64,000 bases of DNA from Acetobacter fallax (GTDB lineage: Bacteria; Pseudomonadota; Alphaproteobacteria; Acetobacterales; Acetobacteraceae). Of this stretch, positions 38,653 to 41,045 are shown one piece after another; the first letter of the stretch is position 1; each line of letters opens with the position of its first letter. The translations under genes and the position numbers were made by a program. Location of the stretch: positions 186,001 to 250,000 of the forward strand of contig NZ_WOSX01000001.1 of NCBI RefSeq assembly GCF_011516735.1. Reading direction: 5' to 3'. A model generated the notes under the pieces. The model was not told the origin of the DNA. It searched no databases and worked only from the letters and a program-made list of their open reading frames with translations.

Positions 38653-38958
38653 ATGGCTGACGATAAAATCAATCCAATCAAAGAGAAGCTGGAAGGCGCT
38701 GTCGATCAGGCTAAAGGCCACGTGAAAGACGCGGCGGGTGGTCTCACGGGTGATTCCAGCCTTCAGGCGGAAGGTAAAGTGGACCAGCTCGCGGGCATGG
38801 CACGCGAGGAATTTGCCGATCTCTATGAAGAAGGCGAAGGGCTGATCGAGAAAGGGACTACATTCATTCGTGACAAACCTCTTCTGTCACTCGGAATTGC
38901 CTGGTTCGCTGGCACCCTGTTTGGCTGGTGCCTGATGCCTCGTCGCCGGAAGGCCTGA
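38653..38958 (+). CDS. CsbD-family stress protein with C-terminal membrane segment
   Basis: A 101-aa protein. The CsbD-like part is at 1-60 (DKINPIKEKLEGAVDQAKGHVKDAAGGLTGDSSLQAEGKVDQLAG), a charged helical stretch follows, and then a hydrophobic segment (PLLSLGIAWFAGTLFGWCLM) with a basic tail RRRKA. CsbD-like proteins are typically induced in general stress; the tail helix suggests inner-membrane anchoring, as in the ElaB/YqjD type. The frame is open 96 bp upstream, but the ATG at 38653 has AAGGG in front and starts the homology. It is divergent from the MFS gene. Confidence 0.85.
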   Translation: MADDKINPIKEKLEGAVDQAKGHVKDAAGGLTGDSSLQAEGKVDQLAGMAREEFADLYEEGEGLIEKGTTFIRDKPLLSLGIAWFAGTLFGWCLMPRRRKA

Positions 38959-39040
38959 TTGCAGCCAGAAATCTGACCAGCCGGCGGTATCTGCAACGCC
39001 ACTTTCTGTTCCCGGATCCGGGTTTCCAGTAGTTTACTGT

Positions 39041-39078
39041 CATATATTTCTGCTGACGTCCGTCAGCAGAAATATATG
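39041..39078. terminator. Perfect 18-bp inverted repeat between csbD and rnhB
   Basis: The left arm 39041-39058 (ending CTGCTGACG) is the exact reverse complement of 39061-39078, separated by TC. It lies about 80 bp after the csbD-family stop and is followed by TTCATTTTGTA, a weak T-rich tail, so it may be the csbD terminator. In RNA a few central pairs would have to open to form the loop. A protein-binding palindrome is the alternative. Confidence 0.5.
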
Positions 39079-39104
39079 CTTCATTTTGTATTATACTCAG
39101 TCCT

Positions 39105-39251
39105 GACTCACAATATTTACATTCGGGCCGTCAGCCCCTGGAGCCTTCAACATAATTTTTTGTCTCTCCGACTCTTGCGTCCACCCCCCATATAATGGTT
39201 TTCCTTTCTTACGAGTCGCAGATCAAACGACTCGTCGATTCAAAGCGAGTC
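39105..39251. promoter_or_regulatory. rnhB-ccrM promoter with GANTC cluster
   Basis: GANTC occurs at 39105, 39170, 39213, 39229, 39237 and 39247. TATAAT at 39191-39196 is a good -10 box, which would put the GACTC at 39170 on the -35 position and the last four sites in the transcribed leader. Two of them form the inverted repeat ACGAGTCG (39211-39218) / CGACTCGT (39228-39235). GANTC is the target of CcrM methyltransferases. In Caulobacter the ccrM promoter is known to be repressed by methylation of GANTC sites in its leader. Confidence 0.65.
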
Positions 39252-39276
39252 GCTTGAAGACCGAGGAAGGGACGCC

Positions 39277-39909
39277 ATGCCGGATTTCACACTGGAGACG
39301 GGATATGGTGGTCGCGTGGCTGGCGTGGACGAGGCCGGTTGCGGCCCCCTCGCAGGTCCGGTCGTCGCGGCCGCTGTCGTCTTCGGTGCTGGTGTGCCCG
39401 ATGATCTTGCTTCGATCATCGACGATTCAAAAGCGATCAAACCGACACGACGTGAAGCTATTGCCCGACGCCTGACGTCTGTCCCGGGAATCGAAATCGG
39501 GATTGGTGCGGCTTCGGTCGCTGAAATTCTTCGACTAAACATTCTTCGTGCTGCCCACCTCGCAATGCGGCGTGCCGTCAATCGTCTTCCGACACCTCCT
39601 TCGCTTGCTCTTGTTGATGGCAACAAAGCTCCCGCCCTTGAGGTGCCAGTCCGTACACTGGTGGGTGGAGACGCAATCAGCCTGTCGATCGCCGCAGCAT
39701 CCATCCTGGCCAAAGTAACCCGAGACCGGATCATGGTGCGCCTTGATCTGCGCTGGCCAGGCTACGGATGGGCCCGCAATGCCGGATATGGCACGGCCGC
39801 ACATCGAACAGCCATTACCACACAGGGCTGCACGCCCCATCATCGTCGCGATTTTGGCACGGTCCGTAAACAACTTGCACTCACCATTGCCCACGGAGAC
39901 TCAGTATGA
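39277..39909 (+). CDS. rnhB: Ribonuclease HII
   Basis: Removes RNA from RNA-DNA hybrids, including single ribonucleotides and primers. The 210 aa include the active-site motif [23 protein letters not shown] near residue 15, [26 protein letters not shown] and [22 protein letters not shown], then the C-terminal [31 protein letters not shown]. The start ATG at 39277 has AAGGGA five bases upstream. Its stop overlaps the ccrM start (ATGA), so both genes form one transcription and translation unit; rnhB next to ccrM is common in alphaproteobacteria. Confidence 0.96.
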
Positions 39910-41045
39910 GCGGTGCTACCACCCCCATGGAACTGCCGCTTGACCAGATTCTGCGAGGCGAATGTATCGACGTTATGAAAATGTTACCAACAGCCAGCGT
40001 TGACTGCGTCTTTGCTGATCCACCGTATAATCTGCAGCTTCGCGGAGAGCTTCGCCGTCCTGATGATACTGTTGTAGACGGCGTCGATGATGACTGGGAC
40101 AAATTTTCAGATCTTGCAGCTTATGACCGGTTTACCCGCGACTGGCTGAGTGAGGCACGACGACTGTTACGTAAGGATGGAACGATCTGGGTCATCGGTT
40201 CATATCACAATATCTTCCGTATTGGCGCCATTCTGCAGGACCTCGGATTCTGGATCCTCAATGACATCGTTTGGCGCAAATCCAATCCGATGCCCAACTT
40301 CCGCGGTCGGCGCTTCACGAATGCTCATGAGACGCTCATCTGGGCAGCTCGCAGCCAAAACAGTCGCTATCGGTTCAACTACCAGGCCATGAAAGCCCTG
40401 AATGACGATGTGCAGATGCGGTCGGACTGGTATCTTCCCCTCTGCACTGGCGGCGAACGCCTCCGCAATGACCACGGACTGAAACTCCATCCGACGCAAA
40501 AACCCGAAAGTCTGTTACACCGCGTCCTGATCTCGTCCACATCTGCTGATGATGTCGTGCTTGATCCTTTTACGGGCACGGGCACAACTGCCGCGATGGC
40601 GAAACGCCTCCGTCGACGTTTTATCGGGATTGAACGTCATCCTGACTATGTTGAGGCTGCAATAGGTCGGGTTCGACGCGAGAAGGCTCTTCCGCTCGAT
40701 GCCATCGCCACGACGCCAATGAAACGAGAAGCACCGCGCGTACCATTCGGCAGCCTGGTCGAACGAAATTTTATTACGGTTGGAACGATTGTCTGCGATA
40801 AAAACCGTCGGATTTTTGCAACCGTTGCACCTGACGGAACATTAATCAGTGGCAGCAAACGCGGCTCGATTCACAAGCTGGGCGCCATGATGACCAGCGC
40901 GCCTTCCTGCAACGGATGGACGTTCTGGCATCTGGAGCGTGAAGGACAACTGATTCCTCTGGACGCACTGCGCAGCGAAAGCCTCGCTGCGGAAGCCGCA
41001 GAACTGATCGCCCCGTCCACGAATATCCCGATCGCCGCGCAATAA
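39906..41045 (+). CDS. ccrM: CcrM-family adenine-specific DNA methyltransferase (GANTC)
   Basis: Solitary cell-cycle methyltransferase expected to make N6-methyladenine in GANTC. The 379 aa are of the beta class: the catalytic motif [10 protein letters not shown] (about residue 38) comes first, then the target-recognition part ([27 protein letters not shown]), and the SAM motif [14 protein letters not shown] near 220. The C-terminal domain (about 280-360, [35 protein letters not shown]) is the RAMA-like extension found in CcrM and needed for DNA binding. No restriction enzyme is nearby. A GACTC lies just ahead of the ATG, next to the ribosome binding site GGAG. Confidence 0.95.

Follow-up and report, generated by a model that had tools for sequence, protein, structure and literature searches.

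In the window, the whole 64-kb stretch of DNA that was analysed, rnhB, the gene for ribonuclease HII, is followed by ccrM, the gene for the GANTC adenine methyltransferase (Table 1). The two genes overlap by 4 bp, which bears out the linkage assumed in the original prediction, a note on this DNA that placed the rnhB-ccrM operon under methylation feedback through a cluster of GANTC sites. The ccrM product scores 620 bits against NF050803, under the cut-off of 830 for that model; the similarity to Caulobacter CcrM (6pbd, E = 5e-145), together with the N6_N4_Mtase and RAMA domains, identifies it as the CcrM ortholog that a GcrA/CcrM methylation-responsive promoter calls for. Ahead of rnhB and 3' of a gene for a CsbD-like protein lies a perfect hairpin with a weak U run, probably a terminator, and because this hairpin follows the CsbD-like gene, rnhB is probably transcribed from a promoter of its own.

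Table 1. Features of the rnhB-ccrM locus, with positions in the window
Feature	Position	Strand	Evidence or remark
18-bp perfect hairpin, terminator-like	39041..39078	+	3' of CsbD-like gene, ahead of rnhB
GANTC	39105..39109	.	not conserved; without a constant counterpart in the genus
GACTCTTGC, with GANTC as -35 of the presumed promoter of rnhB-ccrM	39170..39178	+	invariant in 42/42 except N (39/42)
TATAAT, candidate -10	39191..39196	+	genus consensus AAAAAT
Pyrimidine tract, predicted partner of the Shine-Dalgarno region	39200..39211	+	suggestive only
Leader GANTC site 1 (GAGTC)	39213..39217	.	core 42/42, N 36/42
Conserved leader hairpin, sites 2 and 3 paired with flanks	39223..39257	+	covariation, predicted folding
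Leader GANTC site 2 (GACTC), 5' arm of hairpin	39229..39233	.	five letters 42/42
GANTC in hairpin loop	39237..39241	.	restricted to the A. aceti-like clade (clade assignment tentative)
Leader GANTC site 3 (GAGTC), 3' arm of hairpin	39247..39251	.	five letters 42/42
Shine-Dalgarno region of rnhB	39263..39272	+	by eye
rnhB, ribonuclease HII	39277..39909	+	PF01351 1.8e-37; NF000595 217 bits (cut-off 167)
GANTC adjoining the ccrM ribosome binding site	39898..39902	.	not conserved, 1/44 loci
ccrM, GANTC adenine methyltransferase	39906..41045	+	N6_N4_Mtase + RAMA; Caulobacter CcrM 6pbd 5e-145

All seven GANTC positions of the original prediction (39105, 39170, 39213, 39229, 39237, 39247 and 39898) are borne out. 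The chance rate of one site per 256 bp from which it reckoned does not hold for the window, with one per 376 bp, whereas the enrichment of the cluster stands and is stronger than was estimated. The window contains 170 GANTC sites against a mean of 327 in dinucleotide shuffles, so that the motif is depleted by about half, in agreement with the under-representation of GANTC in CcrM-bearing genomes described in the available text of PMC3973325; given this window-wide depletion, the cluster is more striking than it had appeared. Between 39100 and 39276, 6 sites were observed where 0.47 were expected, no other 150-bp stretch of the window is denser, and each of 15 other N-centred palindromes taken as controls has at most 3 sites in the same interval.

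Detectable rnhB genes are present in 48 of the 49 genomes of Acetobacter. The regions upstream of 42 of these were aligned, with the exclusion of L154 (start misassigned), L155 to L158 (without the 39229/39247 pair of sites) and L159 (rnhB in two pieces); a second alignment (A2) comprises 43 rows and excludes L148, which has a one-base deletion. The 16 core letters of the sites at 39170, 39213, 39229 and 39247 are invariant in all 42 rows, against a mean identity of 0.72 in the 92 other columns of 39160-39276, although, counting against the reading that we prefer, 16 of these 92 columns are likewise at least 95% identical. The middle letter is likewise constant in all 42 rows at 39229, where it is C, and at 39247, where it is G, and varies little at 39170 (39 of 42) and 39213 (36 of 42), a constancy beyond what methylation alone requires. 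The 39229/39247 pair is kept in 44 of the 48 loci of the genus that bear rnhB and is absent from L155-L158; a pattern search of the genomes found the pair in 44 of the 49, with four matches, in three genomes, lying outside the rnhB leader. The conservation check proposed in the original prediction therefore came out in favour of these four sites and against those at 39105 and 39898, whereas 39237 proved specific to one clade that appears to be A. aceti-like. With a counterpart in 1 of 44 loci, the site at the ccrM ribosome binding site (39898), to which a regulatory part had been ascribed, was rejected as a member of the array.

Of the loci with rnhB but without the pair, three, L155, L158 and L157 (G185, G186 and G187), show no GANTC in the 300 bases ahead of the assigned start; the TTG start assigned to L157 may be an error. 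Two of these three genomes are just 1.5-1.7 Mb in size.

As originally predicted, one GANTC falls at -35, provided that TATAAT at 39191 is the -10 element. The hexamer itself is indeed present in the window, but its aligned counterparts have the genus consensus AAAAAT, and a scan of 38900-39320 with the sigma-70 promoter consensus gave no match, which counts against the preferred reading; the missing consensus might be expected of an activator-dependent promoter. The presumed promoter core contains a conserved GANTC, within GACTCTTGC, and GcrA (PF07750, above cut-off) is encoded in 48 of the 49 Acetobacter genomes, including that of the window. According to the available portions of the sources, GcrA binds methylated GANTC and acts with sigma70 (PMC3667746, PMC7403470), mutation of GANTC lowers several GcrA promoters by 60-80% (PMC3667746), and the extended GcrA motif is YGAKTCK (taken from PMC7987155). 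In the window, this extended motif is matched by leader sites 1-3 but not by the -35 site; in the wider set of 44 loci, site 1 matches in 12, site 2 in 44 and site 3 in 38. The mismatch of the -35 site and the low count for site 1 speak against the preferred reading. A full CtrA box (TTAA-N7-TTAA) within 300 bases upstream was found in none of the 44 loci, a TTAA half being present in 27, so Caulobacter-type CtrA activation of rnhB-ccrM was rejected. The near-universal presence of GcrA, the lack of a full CtrA box and a geometry resembling that of ctrA P1 jointly favour GcrA-type activation. In the accessible text of PMC4287350, the GANTC of ctrA P1 lies at -28 or -29; the Acetobacter site would lie at about -33 if transcription starts 7 bases after TATAAT. 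It should be kept in mind that ctrA P1, unlike tipF, is described in the available part of PMC3667746 as independent of GcrA and of an intact GAnTC.

For a comparison of array positions among Alphaproteobacteria, 153 non-redundant rnhB-ccrM loci were used, each with both genes on one strand at a distance within 600 bases and with the upstream region present. These comprise 66 loci in which the genes overlap or nearly touch (33 from Acetobacter and 33 others), 75 with a gap of at least 60 bases and 12 with a gap of 30-59 bases. Where the genes touch, there are 28.4 GANTC per kb ahead of rnhB, against 1.8 in coding sequence, and at least three sites fall within the 150 bp before rnhB in 57 of the 66 loci. 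Where they are separated, the gap holds 23.7 sites per kb and the stretch before rnhB 3.6; at least three sites occur in the gap of 40 of the 75 loci and before rnhB in just one, and, locus by locus, the stretch before rnhB has the higher count in 10 cases and the gap in 54, with 11 tied. The loci with intermediate gaps resemble the separated ones (24.5 per kb in the gap against 3.3 ahead of rnhB), and seven control palindromes do not exceed 4.8 per kb. Against this regularity, 14 of the 75 separated loci, many from the family of the window itself, have no site in the gap.

Judged from these sequences, the array lies throughout the class on the promoter side, either of ccrM itself or of a gene to which ccrM is joined. 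The Caulobacter ccrM leader carries two GANTC sites, and the original prediction pointed out that the array of the window is larger; such a size is not unusual, more than two gap sites being found in over half of the separated loci. Because the array sits wherever the ccrM promoter must be, the Acetobacter array is a relocated member of a class-wide family of arrays rather than an exceptionally enlarged one. For cell-cycle genes of Alphaproteobacteria, a count of predicted CcrM sites in promoters of 500 bp already exists (PMC2877005), so the class-wide ccrM count may be partly in print, although the available text of that study derives no control from the counts. An origin of the cluster by chance, or as a by-product of intergenic enrichment, could appeal to the over-representation of GANTC between genes in Alphaproteobacteria noted in the available text of PMC3973325, but four site cores invariant in 42 species and the contrast before rnhB between touching (57/66) and separated (1/75) loci make it extremely improbable. 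For the four conserved sites, such an origin is contradicted; for those at 39105 and 39898, it may apply.

The sites in the gaps are also non-randomly spaced. Two or more GANTC sites are present in the rnhB-ccrM gap of 55 of the 87 loci with gaps of at least 30, and in the spacing test on loci of this type (42 regions, 314 pairs) the distances cluster near 10, 19, 29 and 38 bp, that is, near multiples of 9.75 bp. For periods of 9.5 and 10 the mean cosine is 0.305, whereas random placements gave about 0.00 (sd 0.04) and none of 500 reached the observed value. After thinning to about 15 regions with CcrM less than 70% identical, the signal was 0.30 (0/1000); with a 75% identity cut, it was weaker, 0.16 in the draw tested (10/1000). 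Coding GANTC sites gave 0.129 from 39 pairs, and the control motifs GCNGC (36 pairs) and CGNCG (50 pairs), the only two of ten with enough pairs, gave about -0.05. Acetic acid bacteria other than Acetobacter showed 0.29 at period 10.5 (0/500, 16 regions), and the same spacing test did not reveal helical phasing in Acetobacter. Helical spacing fits proteins that read one face of the DNA, although the pattern was found by looking and not predicted.

In line with the original prediction that two of the sites form an inverted repeat, two such repeats occur among the leader sites, 39211-39218/39228-39235 (8 of 8 positions) and 39223-39234/39246-39257 (11 of 12), of which only the second has good covariation support, a feature that the prediction missed. 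In the 44 loci of Acetobacter that have both, the sites at 39229 and 39247 are inverted and 18 bp apart, and around them 10-18 of 19 tested positions pair. Among 35 distinct rows, 87.1% of the cells are paired, six pairs covary, and two-sided changes account for 45 cells, a number reached by none of 500 shuffles and falling to 6-14 when the pairing is slid; the numbers of covarying pairs (280 of 500 shuffles as high) and of pair types (317 of 500) were no better than in the shuffles. On the rnhB tree of 42 loci, 13 two-sided changes that keep pairing are spread over ten flank pairs, against 0-3 in seven slides (-4 to +3) and at most 9, with a mean of 2.1, in 300 random column pairings. On the same tree, pairing is lost 22 times and gained 20 times, which means that the outer stem lacks rigidity. 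By predicted folding, the hairpin has a probability above 0.5 in 39 of 42 leaders, a count that leaves out L154 and L159, which were folded from a misplaced stretch. The sites at 39229 and 39247 are, by covariation, the arms of a hairpin, which probably lies in the mRNA leader, with a DNA dyad as the alternative.

Several other structures were considered. The hairpin that would join 39213 to 39229, a perfect 8 bp in the window, was rejected: its covariation score was reached by 117 of 500 shuffles, and it shows 2 tree events over six flank pairs and is dominant in 2 folds; its share of paired cells is 79.5%, reached by 5 of 500 shuffles. A terminator-type attenuator was rejected as well, the leader hairpin being without a U run, and the scan of 38900-39320 lists only 39041-39078. 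The Rfam covariance models gave no hit at E<=1 in 38960-39320, and a search of the open-licence literature found no paper on RNA structure ahead of ccrM.

Outside the genus, stems of 12-18 positions (one mismatch allowed) with GANTC in both arms were detected in L084, L088, L090, L174 and L175, and in all of these except L174 the middle letters of the stem GANTC are changed to A/T. Stems better than shuffled flanks (p<=0.05) were found in 27 of 33 Acetobacter loci, 6 of 27 other loci of the overlap type and 4 of 54 gap-type loci. In L156 (G117), a 10-bp hairpin without GANTC occupies the place of the GANTC hairpin, at -52 to -25 of rnhB; 1 of 60 shuffles was as good. This locus retains GACTCTTGCG though it is without the 39229/39247 pair.

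A similar dyad, CGACTCG-N11-CGAGTCG, is present in six of eight Novosphingobium loci (L030, L039, L044, L045, L046 and L071, but not L038 or L047), directly upstream of a TTGACG box in the rnhB-ccrM gap; in four of the six, it encloses a further GANTC. The spacing is the same as in Acetobacter, with the elements in another order, and if the TTGACG box is a -35 element, the Novosphingobium dyad is outside the ccrM leader. It could therefore be argued that the inverted pair at 39229/39247 is solely a DNA dyad, the target of a regulator that binds as a dimer or in pairs, be it GcrA or some other GANTC reader, and that the RNA hairpin simply follows from the symmetry of the DNA. The 9.5-10 bp period of the spacings in the ccrM gaps and the match of site 2 (44/44) and site 3 (38/44) to YGAKTCK are compatible with this explanation. 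So is the modest bias toward wobble pairs, the expected mark of RNA: G-T cells outnumber A-C cells in the hairpin 34 to 11, or just 14:6 as tree events, but 5 of 6 slid controls by cells and 4 of 7 by events, the latter reaching 7:3 and 12:8, lean the same way, so that this excess is weak evidence for a sense-strand RNA. However, the flanks vary often and yet remain complementary (the 13 events above), unlike those of a fixed half-site, and L156 has its hairpin in the same place without GANTC. We consider the purely DNA-level explanation rather unlikely; the dyad may instead be an element of the DNA that has, in Acetobacter, come to serve as an RNA stem as well.

At the other extreme, the hairpin could be primary, a structure in the mRNA leader by which access to the Shine-Dalgarno site is gated, with the arm GANTC kept for pairing and not for methylation. 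The covariation of the flanks and the L156 hairpin are what this explanation would lead one to expect, and the pyrimidine tract preferentially pairs with its own Shine-Dalgarno region (-13.9, against -11.3 with those of other species). In the swap test, none of 2000 was as good when relatedness was uncontrolled, but the controlled test left six representatives only (54/5000), and the predicted pairing ranges from 0.13 to 1.0 between species. Furthermore, the cores of the -35 site and site 1, outside the hairpin, are equally invariant, and the class-wide arrays are mostly without such hairpins (the 4 of 54 gap-type loci above). Such a primacy of the hairpin is, in our view, decidedly unlikely.

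We lean, without great confidence, toward a reading of these sequences in which the region ahead of rnhB controls the rnhB-ccrM operon through a GcrA-type methylation-responsive promoter combined with a structured leader. GcrA, together with sigma70, would activate the promoter with GANTC at -35 when this site is methylated or hemimethylated, and the leader array would let the operon sense its own methylation. Passage of the replication fork would leave the sites hemimethylated and open rnhB-ccrM expression, whereas renewed CcrM synthesis would remethylate them and close it. In Acetobacter, folding of the leader RNA into the hairpin with 39229 and 39247 in its arms would add a level of control after transcription, probably through the access of ribosomes or the stability of the mRNA. 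One could go further and imagine that the same letters serve twice, as GANTC in the DNA and as a GACUC/GAGUC hairpin in the mRNA that mimics the target and is bound by CcrM (or GcrA), with autogenous translational control atop the methylation feedback, but this idea we regard as very unlikely to be right.

The proposed arrangement is not without parallels. As in Caulobacter crescentus, the control region of the methylase gene is thought to answer to methylation: the available text of PMC2217572 has CtrA drive Caulobacter ccrM only from hemimethylated DNA, and that of PMC3973325 calls ccrM "most probably" methylation-responsive. Unlike the Caulobacter gene, the Acetobacter array lies ahead of rnhB, the genes overlap, a covarying hairpin is found in the presumed leader and the full CtrA box is missing. 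With the GcrA-activated promoters mipZ, podJ and ctrA P1 (PMC3667746 and PMC4287350, in the parts available), the locus shares a GANTC in the promoter core and an encoded GcrA; it differs in that the presumed start is followed by several more sites. Synthetic circuits in which CcrM expression is likewise placed under methylation-sensitive binding are described in the accessible text of PMC5458116, with an engineered rather than natural zinc finger.

CcrM probably regulates the expression of its own gene at the level of DNA and, perhaps, also at the level of RNA. To our knowledge, the setting of the CcrM level has been little studied outside a few model species. The arrays near the promoter side of ccrM across the class make methylation feedback directly testable in many species, and in Acetobacter the hairpin points to a further layer of ccrM control at the RNA level.
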